Assembly: GCF_900168015.1 (NCBI RefSeq)
Contig: NZ_FUYR01000001.1
Location: 804,943 to 868,942, forward strand
DNA: 64,000 bases
Direction of reading: 5' to 3'
Source: Daejeonella lutea
Lineage (GTDB): Bacteria > Bacteroidota > Bacteroidia > Sphingobacteriales > Sphingobacteriaceae
Notes under the pieces: generated by a model
Database searches by the model: none
The model's input: only the letters and a program-made list of their open reading frames with translations
What the model was told of the DNA's origin: nothing
Made by a program: the position numbers and the translations under genes
Part shown: piece by piece, positions 1-6,576 of the stretch
Numbering within the stretch: the stretch's first letter is position 1
Layout: the number at the start of each line of letters is the position of its first letter

Positions 1-938
1 GGATCTATCTTAGACTTAACATCTCCAGGCAAAAAACCAATATCCTTGTTACTCAAAGGGACAATTGGTCTGGTCACGAATATCTGTCTATAATTCTTTC
101 TTTGTTCAAGCGCACTGGCTATAGCAAGAAGTGTCTTTCCGGTACCAGCGTTGCCCTGAATTGTTACTAATTTAATATCCGGGTTCATCAATGCATGAAT
201 AGCGAAAGCCTGTTCCGGATTTTTCGGCTCTATATTATAAACCGACTGATGAGGGATATACTCCAGTTCGAACCTTTTAGGATTGTAATATGCTGACGCT
301 GTTTTATTCTTGCTGTTTAAAGTAAAAAAATGATTTTCGTGAATTATACTAACACCTGTTTTTTCTATGGGCAGAGTTTTTTTACTGATAAGCTCGTCTA
401 TTACCTTATTTGTTAAATTGCTGACGACTGTCTTTCCGGTATATAGTTCTTCAACATTTTTGACCTTTCCAGTTTCATAATCCTCAGCAAATAGATTGAG
501 AGCTTTTGCTTTAAGTCTTAAACAAATATCTTTTGAAACAAGCGTGATCCGTTTGGACGGGTATTTTTCCTGGAGACTAAGGGCGGCATTCAAAATTCGA
601 TGATCAAATTTCCCTTCTCCGAAAATTTTTTCTGCATTGACTTTCTCGGGCACCTCATCCATTACTACTTTAAAGCTCCCTCTCCCCTTCCCTTTTAATG
701 GGATCCACTCATTTAGGAGCGCACTTCTGGAAATATTATCCATCAACCGGATAAAGCTTCTGGCTTCGTAATTCCTTGTGTCATTTCCAGTCTTGAAGTT
801 ATCAAGTTCTTCAAGCACCTGAATTGGAACCGCTACATCATGTTCTTGAAAGTTTTGGAATGCATCGTGATCGTATAATATGACCGAAGTGTCCAGAACA
901 AATATCTTACCCTGTGCCGTAGAATTATCTTTTCCCAT
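1..938 (-). CDS. PIN-domain PhoH family protein (3' end outside window)
   Basis: Read by hand from an ATG at 938-936; 312 codons run in frame to base 1 with no stop, so the C-terminus lies outside the window. The N-terminus carries a PIN nuclease fold, with VLDTSVILYD around residues 14-23 supplying the first catalytic Asp (D16) and LEELDNFK following. A PhoH-type ATPase comes after, with Walker A GNAGTGKT at residues 262-269 and the family motif RPIVPLSNKDIGFLPGD near the truncated end. PIN-PhoH fusions are known as RNA-unwinding RNases (PhoH2/YlaK type). A second, PIN-less PhoH protein is encoded at 37149-38111. The start lies only about 55 nt downstream of the terminator of noncoding unit A on the same strand, so read-through could feed this gene. 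Family call is firm; cellular role is inferred. Confidence 0.93.
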   Translation of the reverse strand, partial: MGKDNSTAQGKIFVLDTSVILYDHDAFQNFQEHDVAVPIQVLEELDNFKTGNDTRNYEARSFIRLMDNISRSALLNEWIPLKGKGRGSFKVVMDEVPEKVNAEKIFGEGKFDHRILNAALSLQEKYPSKRITLVSKDICLRLKAKALNLFAEDYETGKVKNVEELYTGKTVVSNLTNKVIDELISKKTLPIEKTGVSIIHENHFFTLNSKNKTASAYYNPKRFELEYIPHQSVYNIEPKNPEQAFAIHALMNPDIKLVTIQGNAGTGKTLLAIASALEQRKNYRQIFVTRPIVPLSNKDIGFLPGDVKSKID

Positions 939-992
939 TTAATCAAAAATAAGAAAAACGCAAGAAGGTTTGAGGGGAATTGGATTTTGTGC

Positions 993-1038
993 AAAAGAAA
1001 AACGGAAACCTTGGTCTTTCGATTGGGGTTTCCGTTTT
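993..1038 (-). terminator. Intrinsic terminator of noncoding unit A
   Basis: A perfect 12-bp inverted repeat (AAAACGGAAACC at 999-1010, GGTTTCCGTTTT at 1027-1038) is followed on the minus strand by TTTCTTTT. The A-rich flank on the other side means it may also stop plus-strand transcription. The same hairpin ends unit B. Confidence 0.8.
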
Positions 1039-1331
1039 AACTTTTTCGCAACCATAGTCGCTCAAAGTATTAATTCTTCTTTACTTTGCCTGGTTCGTTC
1101 CTGCCGGTCTTTTCAAACCTTTAGTATCCGTTGACCCTTACTTTATCATCGCAACCCTTCCATAGAATGTTTGCAAAATAGGTAATGCCTGTCCTTAGGA
1201 GCTATCATCTCCAGCCTTTATCTCACAATGCCGGTCTGAATTGAAGCTTAAATTATCCAAAATCTGTTGAAGCCCGAGAGCTTCGGATTTTTGTGGATAT
1301 TGTTTCAGGCTGTCAAAGTACGTCCGTTTTA
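993..1331 (-). ncRNA. Structured noncoding RNA unit A (unknown family)
   Basis: A predicted ~339-nt transcript running from a promoter at 1338-1367 to a rho-independent terminator at 993-1038. It is clearly homologous along its length to unit B (1676-2013) but has diverged. The 5' module folds as stacked helices: TATCC/GGATA, AATC/GATT, then GAAGCT-CTCG-GGCTTC. Unit B keeps all three with different paired bases. Further shared helices are TTGCAA/TTGCGA and CGAC-TATG-GTTG near the 3' end. I saw no conserved reading frame. It lacks the tRNA-like ends of tmRNA, the conserved core of RNase P RNA and the SRP domain IV motif, and it is too long for a normal 6S RNA. The family is unknown to me. An alternative is a long 5' leader of the PIN-PhoH gene downstream. 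Confidence 0.72.
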
Positions 1332-1337
1332 ATAATA

Positions 1338-1367
1338 CTAATATAGTGCATCCTTGGCTTTTGTCAA
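1338..1367 (-). promoter_or_regulatory. Promoter of noncoding unit A
   Basis: On the minus strand TTG (1367-1365) is followed after 19 nt by TATATTAG (1345-1338), one mismatch from the Bacteroidota -7 consensus TAnnTTTG. The start is predicted about 7 nt further, near 1331. The region just upstream is also conserved with unit B. Unit B has the same arrangement. Confidence 0.65.
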
Positions 1368-1675
1368 GGGAAAAATGAAGCTATTTAATAACAAGGTTAC
1401 TAACAAAATTAACTGTCTTTTCAACCTAATTCTATTCGTAATATAATTGGTATAGTGAAACTTAACTACATTTTAAACCGGTTGTTAACATCTCATCGAT
1501 TTCCAAATTATTAACATTAGCAGTGAACTATTGCTAAGTAAATTATCGAGATTGGCGTGTGAAGTTGTTGTATCTTGTTCTGATGATTCCCGACCGCCAG
1601 GTATTCAATTCCCACTCAGTGAGCTTCTTGGTATTTAAAATTGAAAACTGGGAAAAATACAATATAGAATTCATT

Positions 1676-1723
1676 TAAAACGAAAAACGGAAACCATCCT
1701 CTTGCGATTCCAGTTTCCGTTTT
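1676..1723 (-). terminator. Intrinsic terminator of noncoding unit B
   Basis: An 11-bp inverted repeat (AAAACGGAAAC at 1684-1694, GTTTCCGTTTT at 1713-1723) is followed on the minus strand by a T-rich stretch (TCGTTTT). The stem is the same as in the unit A terminator, but the loop sequence differs. Confidence 0.78.
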
Positions 1724-2013
1724 AACTTTTTTCACAACCGTAGTTGATCAAAAGCATAAGCTTTATGGCACTTAACCGGTTCGTAGAATCAATGATCTTT
1801 CAAGCAAGATTCCCGTGGCCCTTTATCCTAATTGCATTCATTCCTTAGATTGTTTGCAATTTTTAATAACGTCTGTCATTTCGATCCTGATCTTTTCAAA
1901 CAAATCTTGCGATCTGTTCTGAATCAAGTTTAAATAATCCCGGATCTGATGAAACCCGAAGGCTTCGGATCTTTTGGGATTTTATTTCAGACTGTCAATG
2001 TACCTCGTTCTTA
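1676..2013 (-). ncRNA. Structured noncoding RNA unit B (paralogue of unit A)
   Basis: The second copy of the ~338-nt unit lies about 683 nt from unit A in the same orientation. Its 5' module pairs as AATCC/GGATT, GATC/GATC and GAAGCC-TTCG-GGTTTC. Each helix differs from unit A by compensatory or G-U-preserving changes, which is the signature of selection on RNA structure. The 3' part keeps CAAC-TACG-GTTG followed by the shared GAAAAA-AGTT run-in to the terminator. Total length almost equals that of unit A. The middle (about 1760-1900) is less conserved. No protein is supported. Function is unknown; duplication with independent promoters suggests dose control or differently regulated variants. 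Confidence 0.72.
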
Positions 2014-2019
2014 TTAATA

Positions 2020-2050
2020 CTAAGGTAGGCTAAACGTGGACCTGTGTCAA
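2020..2050 (-). promoter_or_regulatory. Promoter of noncoding unit B
   Basis: On the minus strand TTG (2050-2048), a 20-nt spacer, then TACCTTAG (2027-2020), one mismatch from TAnnTTTG. This is the same geometry and the same deviation (TTAG) as the unit A promoter, so the promoter was duplicated with the RNA body. The start is predicted near 2013. Confidence 0.65.
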
Positions 2051-2320
2051 GAGAAAAATCATAGTTTTTATAAACAGGTTGCTCACAAAAAAGCTGAACT
2101 TATAAACATAGAAAAAGACCTTATTCAATTGATAATAAGTTGATTAGCATGTATATATCTTCAACAATCAACATCCTCAAAACTTTGGCTTATTCACATT
2201 TCTTTAATTTTAGAACCAAGCTTTTATTTTAAGGCTGCCCGTACACAAAGAATATTTATTATTAAATGCATTAATACTTTTAGTGGGAACAGTTTTTGCT
2301 CCATTCAATTAAACAAAATC

Positions 2321-2731
2321 ATGGAAAAAATATATACGGCAGTAGTTACTGCAAAAGGTGGTCGTAATGGACATATTAAGTCTTCAGATGGAATATTAGA
2401 AATGGATCTTCATAAACCTCACGAAATGGGCGGCCAGGGTGGTGCTACCAATCCCGAGCAACTGTTTGCCGGTGCATGGGGTGCTTGTTACCTGGGTGCC
2501 TTAGGGACAATAGCTGAACATGAGGGCGTCGATTCTTCTGAGGCAAGCGTCGATGTCCACGTTTCTTTTAATAAAGATGGTAATGCGTTTGCACTGTCTG
2601 CTGAACTCGATGTTCACATTCCTGGAATTCCAGCCGAGGAAGCACAAAAACTTGCAGATAAGGCCCACCGTGTGTGCCCCTACTCTAAGGCAACTCGCGG
2701 TAATATAGAAACCCGCGTAACAGCAGTATAA
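2321..2731 (+). CDS. ohr: Organic hydroperoxide resistance protein (Ohr/OsmC family)
   Basis: At 136 aa this has the typical Ohr length. It reduces organic hydroperoxides in the cytoplasm using a Cys pair. Both Cys are present: C56 in GACYLGAL and C119 in RVCPYSKATRGN. The Ohr-type N-terminus (YTAVVTAKGGRNG) and GGATNPEQLFAGAWGACY separate it from the OsmC branch. It stands alone between the noncoding units and its own strong terminator (2737-2780), so it is probably monocistronic. No ohrR regulator is nearby in the window. Lipoyl-dependent recycling is known for the family and is not visible here. Confidence 0.95.
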   Translation: MEKIYTAVVTAKGGRNGHIKSSDGILEMDLHKPHEMGGQGGATNPEQLFAGAWGACYLGALGTIAEHEGVDSSEASVDVHVSFNKDGNAFALSAELDVHIPGIPAEEAQKLADKAHRVCPYSKATRGNIETRVTAV

Positions 2732-2736
2732 ATTAT

Positions 2737-2780
2737 CCCTTATCTGAATTGATAATCAGTTCAGATAAGGGTATTTTTGT
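2737..2780 (+). terminator. Terminator of ohr
   Basis: A perfect 12-bp stem (CCCTTATCTGAA 2737-2748, TTCAGATAAGGG 2760-2771) is followed by TATTTTTGTT. It overlaps a possible upstream TTG start (2749) of the next gene and so argues for that gene starting at 2785. Confidence 0.88.
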
Positions 2781-2784
2781 TATA

Positions 2785-4908
2785 ATGAATCAATCGAGGG
2801 AAATTAAGTCGTTCATTTTCAGCCAATATTTTTCCGATGGATTGCGAATAACTTTTGGGGTGCTACTCCCCTCTCTTGTCTTCTATAATCTGAACCTTCT
2901 TTCAACCGGCCTAACTATCTCTCTTGGTGCACTGTGCATTAGCATAGCTGACAATCCCGGCCCAGTGGTTCATAAGAGAAATGGAATGCTTTTCTGCAAT
3001 CTTTTTGTATTTCTCACCGCTGTATTGACCAGTCTCGTCAACTGGAATCCTATCCTTATTGGAATAGAGATAGTTGCCCTGTGTTTCTTCTTTTCCATGT
3101 TTTCCATTTACGGCAATCGAGCTTCGTCTGTGGGAACAGCTGCCCTAATCATCATGATCCTCACCATTGATGAGAATGTTGTTGCACACTCGGGGATTTG
3201 GATGCACGCGATATATATTCTTGCCGGCGGAGCATGGTACACCCTCCTTAGCTTATCCTTAACTCAAATTCGCCCCTACCGACTGGCGCAGCAGGCTTTA
3301 GGAGAATGTATTCGGGAGGTGGCCACCTTCGTTAGAATAAAGTCGGAATTTTATGACCTTGCAACAGATCATGATGAGAATTACAAGAAACTTGTTGAAC
3401 AACAGATTATAGTGAATCAACATCAGGATATTGTTAGGGAACTTTTATTTAAAAGCCGGCTGATGGTCAAGGAATCAACGAGTTCCGGGCGCTTGCTAAT
3501 TCTAGTGTTCGTGGACATTGTCGATTTGTTCGAGCAAACCATGGCAACGCATTATGATTACCAGGCGATACGGTCGAAGTTTGGCAAGACTGATGCTTTG
3601 AAAGGTTTTAAAGCGGTCATACTGAAGTTTAGCGAGGAATTGGATAATCTAAGCTATTTCATCGTCAGCAATGATAAACCTGTACGCTTGCATCACTATA
3701 AAGCTGCACTTGACGCTCTCAAAATTGACATTGATAAGGTAGAGGAACAAAATATAAGCAATCTGGTGCTCAAGAAGATCCTTATAAATGTCCGTAATAT
3801 GGCGAGCAGAGTAAGGAAGATTTACAGCTATTTTGATAATCCACAGCTATCAGGAGCAAATATCCGCAGTACTGAAGATCTTAAAAAATTTGTTTCACAC
3901 CAGGACTTCGATATAAAGCTTCTTAAGGATAACCTCACTTTTAAGTCGTCAATGTTCAGACATTCAATACGAGTCGCGTTGATGTGTTTAATTGGATATC
4001 TGGTTTCTAAATTATTCCCATTTGGTCACCACAGTTACTGGATCCTTCTGACAATATTGGTGATCCTGAAACCTGCCTTCAGCCTAACAAAACAAAGAAA
4101 TGTTCAGCGCTTAATAGGTACACTTTGTGGTGGCGTTGCTGGCGCTTTAATACTCATTTTTGTTAAAGATCAATTTACGCTCTTTATTTTACTGATGGTT
4201 TTTATGGTCGGGATGTTTAGCTTCCAAAGGCTGAATTATGTAGTCAGTGTTTTGTTCATGACCCCATATACGCTCATTTTGTTTAGTTTTCTTGGTGAGA
4301 ATAATATTAGCATAGCTCAGGAAAGGATTATTGATACGTTTATAGGTTCTTTCATCGCCTTAGCTGCAAGTTTTATAATCCTTCCAAACTGGGAGTACCG
4401 CAACCTTAGGAATTTCATGCGTGAAGCACTAATAGCTAACTACCATTATTTAGTGAATGTGGCCAACGAACTTGCCGAAAGACCTTTTGATATCACATCA
4501 TATAAACTCTCACGGAAAGATGTATTTGTAAGCTCTGCAAACCTTGGAAGTGCTTTTCAGCGGATGCAGTCTGAACCAAAAAGTAAGCAACAGAATAATA
4601 AAGAGGTCCATAAATTTGTGGTCTTGAATCATATACTTTCTTCTTACATCGCGACGTTGATCACGAACCTGCAGAATGCTGATAAACCAGAAACAAATGA
4701 AAGTCACATCAAACTAATACGCAAATCATTATATACTTTGGGTGAAATAATAAGGAAATTGGGAGCAAAAGATTTTAATGAGGCAGAACTCCGGTTTCCT
4801 GAGGCCGCACCAGATTCTCCCGCTACAAAAGATCAGTATTTACTCTACGAGCAGTTGGATTACATTAACAAACTAATCCAGGATATCCAAAAACTGATAC
4901 CGAACTAA
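2785..4908 (+). CDS. FUSC family (YccS-like) inner-membrane protein
   Basis: About 707 aa counted from ATG 2785; an in-frame TTG at 2749 is rejected because it sits inside the ohr terminator. Architecture: an N-terminal cluster of hydrophobic helices (about residues 15-170), a long polar, helical cytoplasmic region (about 190-390), a second membrane cluster (about 395-530, starting FRHSIRVALMCLIGY) and a C-terminal soluble tail. This duplicated layout is that of the YccS/FUSC transporters related to aromatic-acid efflux pumps. The substrate cannot be read from sequence. Its TAA and the TAG of the convergent DsbA-like gene share the bases CTAA at 4905-4908. Confidence 0.85.
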   Translation: MNQSREIKSFIFSQYFSDGLRITFGVLLPSLVFYNLNLLSTGLTISLGALCISIADNPGPVVHKRNGMLFCNLFVFLTAVLTSLVNWNPILIGIEIVALCFFFSMFSIYGNRASSVGTAALIIMILTIDENVVAHSGIWMHAIYILAGGAWYTLLSLSLTQIRPYRLAQQALGECIREVATFVRIKSEFYDLATDHDENYKKLVEQQIIVNQHQDIVRELLFKSRLMVKESTSSGRLLILVFVDIVDLFEQTMATHYDYQAIRSKFGKTDALKGFKAVILKFSEELDNLSYFIVSNDKPVRLHHYKAALDALKIDIDKVEEQNISNLVLKKILINVRNMASRVRKIYSYFDNPQLSGANIRSTEDLKKFVSHQDFDIKLLKDNLTFKSSMFRHSIRVALMCLIGYLVSKLFPFGHHSYWILLTILVILKPAFSLTKQRNVQRLIGTLCGGVAGALILIFVKDQFTLFILLMVFMVGMFSFQRLNYVVSVLFMTPYTLILFSFLGENNISIAQERIIDTFIGSFIALAASFIILPNWEYRNLRNFMREALIANYHYLVNVANELAERPFDITSYKLSRKDVFVSSANLGSAFQRMQSEPKSKQQNNKEVHKFVVLNHILSSYIATLITNLQNADKPETNESHIKLIRKSLYTLGEIIRKLGAKDFNEAELRFPEAAPDSPATKDQYLLYEQLDYINKLIQDIQKLIPN

Positions 4909-5555
4909 CTCGCCTGGATTTCGCTCAGAACATTCTGCAGACGGAGTTCAAGTGTATCAAGATCTGTATATCCTTTTGCAATGAGGTAAAAACCGGTTTC
5001 TCCTGACTGAACTAATACAGCTGGAAATCCTGTTACTTGTATCTGCTTTGCCAGTGAGAATTCGTAGAATGCGGCAGTTTTAAATGATTCTTCCTGAAGT
5101 TTTACTTCAAAATCGTCAGGGTCAATTCCGAAATTAACGGCAAGGTAACGATACAATTCGTTCTCATTTGGATCTTGTCCTTCAAAGTAGATAGCATCTT
5201 GCAGATCGTGCGTAAACGCCACAGCTTTTTCAGGTAAGTATGATTTAAATACGGAGAGTGCTATTGCTGGCTTTTCCGAGTTCAGGATCATTGTACCCTC
5301 TTCCAGATGTTTAAGGTATGGCTCTCCAAATTTAATCCCCGTAGTATCCTCAACAGTCTTATAAGCACTTTTGATGAATGGGGCAATGTCATTTATTGAC
5401 CCCACTCGTTCGCCAGTCATCATACCTCCGCTAAGAACCTCAAATGGGAATATGGATCCGTGGCTTTCATAAAAGGCGTGGATCACCTTACTAAAACCAT
5501 AACACCACCCGCAAAGGGCATCGTATACGTAGATGATCCTGATATACTTTTGCAT
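4905..5555 (-). CDS. DsbA/FrnE-like thioredoxin-fold oxidoreductase
   Basis: 216 aa with the redox motif CGWC at residues 15-18 near the N-terminus, preceded by the beta strand IRIIYVYDAL, and a cis-Pro loop TGFPAVLV around residues 176-183. No signal peptide, so it is predicted cytoplasmic, like FrnE and the 2-hydroxychromene-2-carboxylate isomerase branch rather than periplasmic DsbA. It is the last gene of a minus-strand series (wbqC-corA-mgtE-bioB-this gene), 22 nt after bioB. The partner or substrate is unknown; a thiol-disulfide role is inferred from the CxxC. Confidence 0.85.
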   Translation of the reverse strand: MQKYIRIIYVYDALCGWCYGFSKVIHAFYESHGSIFPFEVLSGGMMTGERVGSINDIAPFIKSAYKTVEDTTGIKFGEPYLKHLEEGTMILNSEKPAIALSVFKSYLPEKAVAFTHDLQDAIYFEGQDPNENELYRYLAVNFGIDPDDFEVKLQEESFKTAAFYEFSLAKQIQVTGFPAVLVQSGETGFYLIAKGYTDLDTLELRLQNVLSEIQAS

Positions 5556-5577
5556 TTAAAATATAAAAATTCAAATA

Positions 5578-6576
5578 TTATAAAGCCTCTTCCTCAACCC
5601 TAACCCTTGGTCTGCCATTTTTAAATGCTTCACGAGGCTTCAAACCCAATAATGAAAACATTTCCATATCCTCATTAAACGCCGGGTTAGGCGTCGTTAA
5701 TAATTTATCGCCCGCGAATATAGAATTGGCCCCTGCCATAAAGCAGAATGCCTGGTCAGTTAAACTCATTTCAGTCCGGCCTGCAGATAAACGAACAACT
5801 GTTTTAGGCATAATAATTCGTGCTGTTGCTATCATCCGGATCATATCCCAAATTGGAACTCTTGGCTGATCGGCCAAAGGAGTTCCTTTAACTGGAACAA
5901 GGGCATTGATAGGAACCGATTCTGGATGTTTAACCATATTAGACAGGGTTTTCAGCATTGAAATTCGATCTTCGACCGTTTCACCTAATCCTATTATACC
6001 ACCGCTGCATACTGTTAATTTAGCCTTCCTGGCATTATCAATTGTTTTGAGGCGGTCATCGTAAGTTCGTGTAGTGATGATTCTTTTGTAGTCATCTTCG
6101 GATGTATCAAGGTTATGGTTATATGCATATAGGCCGGCATCCGCTAAACGTTGTGCTTGTGACTCAGTAAGCATGCCCAGAGTACAGCATACTTCCATAT
6201 CTAGAGAATTTACTGATTTGACCATTTCAATAACCCGATCAAAATCGCGGTTATCCCTGACTTCTCTCCAGGCGGCACCCATACATAATCGGGATGCTCC
6301 GGCATTTTTCGCTTTTTGAGCAGCATCTGTAACCTGGTCAACAGACATCAGCGCCTGCACCTCCAAATCGGTATGAAAACGTGCTGCCTGCGGACAATAA
6401 GCACAATCTTCTGGACAACCACCTGTCTTTATTGATAGTAAACTGCTAATTTGAACCTCAGAATAATCTTTATTTTCTCTGTGCACAGTTGCCGCACGAT
6501 AAATAAGATCCAGCAATGGGCTGTGATAGATTTCTGATATCTCTTCTTTTGTCCAGTTGTTTTTGATCTCAGTCAT
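5578..6576 (-). CDS. bioB: Biotin synthase
   Basis: 332 aa. A radical-SAM enzyme that inserts sulfur into dethiobiotin in the last step of biotin synthesis. The CxxxCxxC cluster is C54, C58 and C61 in [13 protein letters not shown], one residue off the E. coli numbering. Other hallmarks are YNHNLDTS and the late Arg region RLSAGRTEM that binds the [2Fe-2S] cluster. No other bio gene is in this window, so biotin synthesis is dispersed here. It lies 83 nt downstream of mgtE on the same strand; whether they share a transcript is uncertain. Confidence 0.97.

Follow-up and report, generated by a model that had tools for sequence, protein, structure and literature searches.

The window analysed here is a 64,000-nucleotide stretch of the Daejeonella lutea genome, and the features of interest lie close to its start. 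There, two tandem units on the minus strand, each predicted to be transcribed into a structured non-coding RNA, sit between a phoH gene and a divergently oriented peroxiredoxin gene. In window coordinates, the features are as follows:

1..938, minus strand: phoH, a protein with PIN_4 and PhoH ATPase domains (PhoH2-like; PF13638, PF02562), extending past the window edge
994..1335, minus strand: unit B, the phoH-proximal structured ncRNA, predicted transcript ~335-342 nt
999..1038, minus strand: predicted intrinsic terminator of unit B, a 12-bp stem with a GNRA inner loop and a T-run to 994
1311..1321, minus strand: boxA-like motif of unit B, GTACTTTGACA
1338..1367, minus strand: predicted promoter of unit B, TTGACA ... 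TATATTAG, with N19 between TTG and TAnnTTAG
1385..1404, minus strand: upstream DNA element of unit B, an 11-12-bp-phased GTTnATAA-type repeat
1679..2017, minus strand: unit A, the distal paralogue, a structured ncRNA
1684..1723, minus strand: predicted intrinsic terminator of unit A, from sequence and covariation
1993..2003, minus strand: boxA-like motif of unit A, GTACATTGACA
2020..2050, minus strand: predicted promoter of unit A, TTGACA ... TACCTTAG, with N20, aligned across the family
2067..2086, minus strand: upstream DNA element of unit A, GTGAGCAACCTGTTTATAAA, with a weaker first half, placed by its aligned position
2321..2731, plus strand: Ohr/OsmC-family peroxiredoxin (TIGR03561, over cut-off), a divergent neighbour outside the RNA

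The first-pass annotation had described minus-strand units about 683 nt apart, each with a TTG-N19/20-TAnnTTAG promoter, a body of about 338 nt and a near-identical intrinsic terminator. This description holds: both units are in place with 682 nt between their 5' ends, the promoter spacing is N19 in unit B and N20 in unit A, each body measures ~335-340 nt from predicted start to terminator end, and the two terminator stems are nearly identical. The unit B promoter matches at 11 of 12 positions in a promoter scan, and a TTG-N19/20/21-TAnnTT promoter is present in 50 of the 57 family units. The phoH start codon lies ~60 nt past the unit B terminator, with its own -7-like box (TATTTTTG) immediately before the ATG. 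A relative of this phoH gene at another locus (L070) scored under the cut-off of NCBIfam NF053827. Against a covariance model, R1, built from 18 units, unit A scored 295.4 bits and unit B, itself in the set used to build the model, 335.9 bits across the full 344 positions. Neither R1 nor the nucleotide search matched anything else in their own genome.

No reading frame stays open across homologues, and a coding gene was rejected on this basis. Each unit has its own predicted promoter and terminator and no conserved frame. Searches with Rfam 15 returned no match at gathering score in window positions 1-6000 (E up to 10) and nothing over the RNA at 26 divergent loci (E up to 1). Matches near the window to RMST_4, SNORA72, ohsC and other models fell far under gathering score and were set aside as chance, and a guide RNA to rRNA was likewise discarded, with a longest complement of 11 nt, the same as in shuffles. 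RNase P RNA and tmRNA both lie elsewhere in the genome, above cut-off; the first-pass annotation had seen neither signature in the RNA. The literature was searched for a Sphingobacteriaceae RNA adjoining phoH and no published one was found. Neither Rfam nor the searched literature contains this RNA family, and the units very probably represent an independent structured ncRNA gene with its own promoter and terminator.

The consensus fold, obtained with RNAalifold on the alignment, comprises a closing helix P0, in which 5' AUUAAG pairs with CUUAAU, a weak P1, a branched P2-P4 region, P5, P6, P7 and the terminator. The loops of P4 and the terminator are GNRA variants (GAAA, GCAA, GUGA, GCGA), that of P6 is GAAA or GCAA, and those of P5 and P7 are UACG-like. 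Folded singly, unit A is better than shuffles (z -4.1) and unit B only weakly so (z -1.9), so it is the comparative evidence that carries the structural case. For the body without its terminator in 18 sequences, RNAalifold gave z = -12.6, and none of 60 column shuffles, which preserve conservation and gaps, was as good. Two-sided changes were counted across 18 units in a MAFFT alignment that was itself not fitted to structure. Here, 89.7% of cells are paired and 46 pairs show two-sided change, in 119 cells, compared with 83.9%, 26 pairs and 44.6 +/- 5.5 cells in the shuffled control; 0 of 500 shuffles reach the observed two-sided changes. With slid partners, the maxima were 46.8% paired, 23 pairs and 42 two-sided cells.

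Because shuffles ignore relatedness, a structure-free simulation along the maximum-likelihood tree was added, with the B sequence as root. In this test, 88.4% of body pairs are kept among the 18 sequences, with 41 two-sided pairs in 104 cells, whereas the maxima over 200 runs were 73.0% paired, 34 pairs and 63 cells, and 0 of 200 runs reach the observed values. The shuffle and simulation tests are only partly independent of the structure, which itself comes from these sequences. Covariation exceeds phylogeny in several helices by simulation, shuffles and z score. The comparison of homologues shows that the multi-helix body (P0, P2-P4, P5, P6, P7) is selected for base pairing, far above chance. 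The terminator stem keeps 99.5% of its cells, with 4 two-sided pairs.

The structural selection first proposed from units A and B is thus borne out in a larger alignment. The paired substitutions quoted between the two units are real, with one exception: the change from CGAC/GTTG to CAAC/GTTG near the 3' end is one-sided, replacing G-U with A-U. The outer P3 pair is U-A in one unit and A-U in the other, and changes in P3a and the terminator recur among homologues.

Homologues are not limited to this locus. Nucleotide search found them in 11 other genomes of the same genus, in one or two copies each and in the same place between phoH and a YccS/FUSC gene, and the R1 search detected the RNA in 121 of 251 Sphingobacteriaceae genomes, spanning 9 of 25 genera. 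At the level of the order, 167 of 300 genomes matched, and the matches listed were again all from Sphingobacteriaceae. With homologues beyond the locus, significant covariation and no Rfam match, the initial suggestion of an undescribed structured RNA in tandem copies stands. The boxA-like 5' motif, the DNA element upstream of the promoter, the repeated association with phoH and TIGR03915 and the lengths of up to about 600 nt in other genera are additions to that first description. No copy was detectable in 8 of 20 same-genus genomes or in whole genera, suggesting that the RNA is dispensable or divergent there. A scan of named genomes with the 21-base 5' motif matched 93 stretches; the named organisms among the matches listed were Mucilaginibacter, Parapedobacter, Daejeonella and Flavihumibacter soli, and the rest were Bacteroidetes MAGs. 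The class sample yielded out-of-family matches in three genomes (G390 at E 9e-8 and two borderline). These come from three other Bacteroidia families (L215 6698-6922, L216 6745-6964, L217 6963-7078) and have the P7/GNRA-terminator end in common; L216 and L217 carry their own repeated modules upstream, and next to the L217 match a phoH gene lies in divergent orientation. They are best regarded as leads and not as established members. So far, the RNA is confined to Bacteroidota, with hosts in Sphingobacteriaceae, a family of soil bacteria.

In the maximum-likelihood tree, all A copies cluster together with no B copy inside the cluster: the duplication is older than the split of the two-copy species, and both copies have been retained. 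The window holds two ancient tandem paralogues. In other genera, both ends of the RNA are constant and the middle is variable, and the family alignment runs to 961 columns with long inserts. Some Mucilaginibacter genomes and one genome of genus g14 carry units expanded to ~600 nt by repeated internal modules (L096, L097, L104, L089, L107), that at L107 including a long internal duplication.

The position of the RNA ahead of phoH raises the question of whether it is a cis-regulatory leader or attenuator, folding within the 5' part of the phoH mRNA so that its terminator gates expression. Among 159 mapped copies, counted as loci and not species since some come from the same genome, 88 precede phoH in the same orientation at a median distance of 90 nt, with the terminator immediately ahead of the gene. 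Of these 88, 53 are within 150 nt, but 35 lie beyond, some with intervening genes, and unrelated genes separate the RNA from phoH at L078, L079 and L109. In addition, 7 of the 159 copies are divergent from phoH, a layout seen in Parapedobacter, extra copies occur at unrelated loci, and 34 have neither phoH nor TIGR03915 inside 2.5 kb, 18 of them at loci with full flanks. The window itself has two complete units with separate promoters, and for most of the genus a -7-like box belonging to phoH itself sits immediately ahead of the ATG. Moreover, 30 of the 159 copies lie directly downstream of TIGR03915, which also adjoins the RNA in D. oryzae (L132). In Mucilaginibacter sp. UR6-11 (L090), the gene order is TIGR03916-TIGR03915-RNA-RNA-phoH, which looks like the ancestral layout. 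If so, the phoH and TIGR03915 associations can both be inheritance. A regulatory leader of phoH is unlikely. The TIGR03916-TIGR03915 pair (L090 7342-9357) is a radical SAM plus DUF4130 putative DNA repair pair and is the second recurrent neighbour.

A highly diverged 6S-type RNA, binding the RNA polymerase holoenzyme, is another candidate. Bacillus has two 6S RNAs, which the two paralogues recall, and neither RF00013 nor RF01685 (6S-Flavo) is detectable in the D. lutea genome, so that the 6S role may be unfilled. This absence is uninformative, however, because the 6S models find almost nothing in the class as a whole: across Bacteroidia, the Rfam 6S models detected 6S RNA in 5 of 159 and 0 of 119 genomes, reflecting either a model gap or real absence. 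Like 6S and 6S-Flavo RNAs, the present RNA appears to be an independent ncRNA gene for which paralogues are possible. It differs in having no match to either model, in its multi-branched fold as opposed to one long hairpin with a central bubble, and in its length of 340-600 nt, two to five times longer than 6S RNA (about 110-190 nt in the models). The initial description had also called the RNA long for 6S. A 6S identity is unlikely. The recurrent order of RNA, terminator and PIN/helicase gene recalls a type III toxin-antitoxin layout, in which the RNA would be the antitoxin or a substrate of the neighbouring PIN-PhoH protein. However, the units are 340 nt long and not short direct repeats, and many copies have no phoH neighbour, making this reading very unlikely. 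Lower still is the chance of a mobile or phage-borne RNA element: some genomes carry the RNA at more than one locus and some species show internal repeat expansions, but the copies track stable neighbours and species relationships, and searches of viral contigs and of phage and plasmid collections gave no match at the sensitivity applied.

Pedo-repair (RF01715) was also considered, for the repair-gene neighbours of the present RNA. It is named after neighbouring repair genes and, like the present RNA, is a predicted RNA of the same bacterial family. It is listed as a predicted RNA in PMC2864571. The two are unlike in sequence and locus, and Pedo-repair was rejected as a different RNA at a different locus. 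For example, genome G190 carries Pedo-repair at C1:3025935 and the present RNA at C1:3849641, and 13 of 14 carriers of the present RNA are without Pedo-repair. The G190 Pedo-repair-like RNA (G190:C1:3025935-3026150, L110) scored 99 bits, under the 150-bit cut-off; the genome is one of genus g15, whose named members are Mucilaginibacter.

OLE, ROOL, GOLLD and raiA are large orphan structured ncRNAs, and they resemble the present RNA in being stand-alone, hundreds of nucleotides long and elaborately folded with a conserved structure, and in their patchy distribution with more than one copy in some genomes. The present RNA differs in having no match to an Rfam model, in its restriction so far to Bacteroidota and in its boxA-like 5' motif. 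The OLE ribonucleoprotein is treated in PMC10898510.

The most conserved part of the RNA is its first 35 nt (ATCAAGaACGA-GTACTTTGACAGCCT), which contains the near-invariant 5' motif GUWCUUURACA. The exact 11-mer of unit B, GTACTTTGACA, occurs in 31 of the 57 units and equals the boxA in the ITS of the D. lutea rRNA operon (GTTCTTTGACA) in 10 of 11 letters. In D. lutea and related genomes, the rrn leader carries GTTCTTTAAAGA or close forms, and the 16S-23S spacer boxA is GTTCTTTGACATATTGG in all 6 spacers examined. Across six Sphingobacteriaceae genomes (L241-L246), this spacer form is invariant, whereas leaders have GTTCTTTAAA or are more variable. Variants of the RNA motif include GTTCTTTGAA in Parapedobacter and GTTCTTTAACA in genus g12, two genera in which it coincides with the boxA-type signal. 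Compared with the rRNA boxA of the same host, some members have an exact GTTCTTTGA or GTTCTTTAACA, and most have one mismatch; the commonest form, GTACTTTGACA, has A for T at boxA position 3. The g12 variant GTTCTTTAACA fits the boxA consensus GYTCTTTAANA (PMC5725501), which is a gamma-proteobacterial one. Part of the motif is paired in predicted P1, with 80% of cells kept and departures mostly one-sided or broken.

This resemblance to the rRNA boxA of the same genomes is the reason for proposing that NusB-S10 loads on the RNA as it does on pre-rRNA. As in rRNA leaders and spacers, a GTTCTTTRAMA-type motif lies near the 5' end of an untranslated transcript; here, the RNA is non-ribosomal, with its own predicted promoter and terminator, and its commonest motif has A at position 3. 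A 340-nt RNA might have no need of antitermination, and the chances that the motif works as a boxA are roughly even.

A further conserved feature lies upstream of the promoter. A double GTTnATAA-like element is present in 34 of the 57 units, 27 of them at exactly 11 bp, against an expectation of 0.24 in dinucleotide shuffles, and a single GTTnATAA is found in 40 of 57 against about 1 expected. This phased direct repeat may be an activator site, DnaA-like or of the UP type.

The most probable reading, held with moderate confidence, is a structured ncRNA that acts in trans and is protected from Rho during its transcription in the rRNA manner (NusB-S10). Transcription would likely begin shortly before P0, at a strong promoter assisted by the phased element upstream of it. 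NusB-S10 (NusE) would bind GUWCUUURACA on the emerging transcript in the way that it binds boxA in rRNA, and through this binding the polymerase is proposed to traverse a few hundred bases of untranslated sequence without being stopped by Rho. The RNA would then fold, and transcription would stop at the terminator ahead of phoH. More tentatively, the folded RNA may act in trans as a ribonucleoprotein scaffold or regulator and not as the leader of a neighbouring gene. Confidence in any particular cellular role is low. Among such roles, it is conceivable, if improbable, that an abundant and stable boxA-bearing RNA is a competitor of pre-rRNA for NusB-S10 (and possibly SuhB) or moves together with the Nus complex, its level tuning rRNA synthesis or assembly. 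If true, the target of this regulatory RNA would be the machinery of rRNA antitermination.

Few structured ncRNA families exceed 300 nt, and several of those known proved to be ribonucleoprotein cores. Two large culturable genera, Mucilaginibacter and g14 (probably Pedobacter), carry the present RNA in most of their sampled members, which makes knock-outs and pull-downs feasible. Its boxA-like motif leads to a concrete hypothesis on the way in which an untranslated RNA may escape Rho in Bacteroidota. The boxA of ncRNA genes was expressly outside the gamma-proteobacterial survey (PMC5725501), and the hypothesis, if true, would widen the use of boxA from rRNA to an ncRNA gene.
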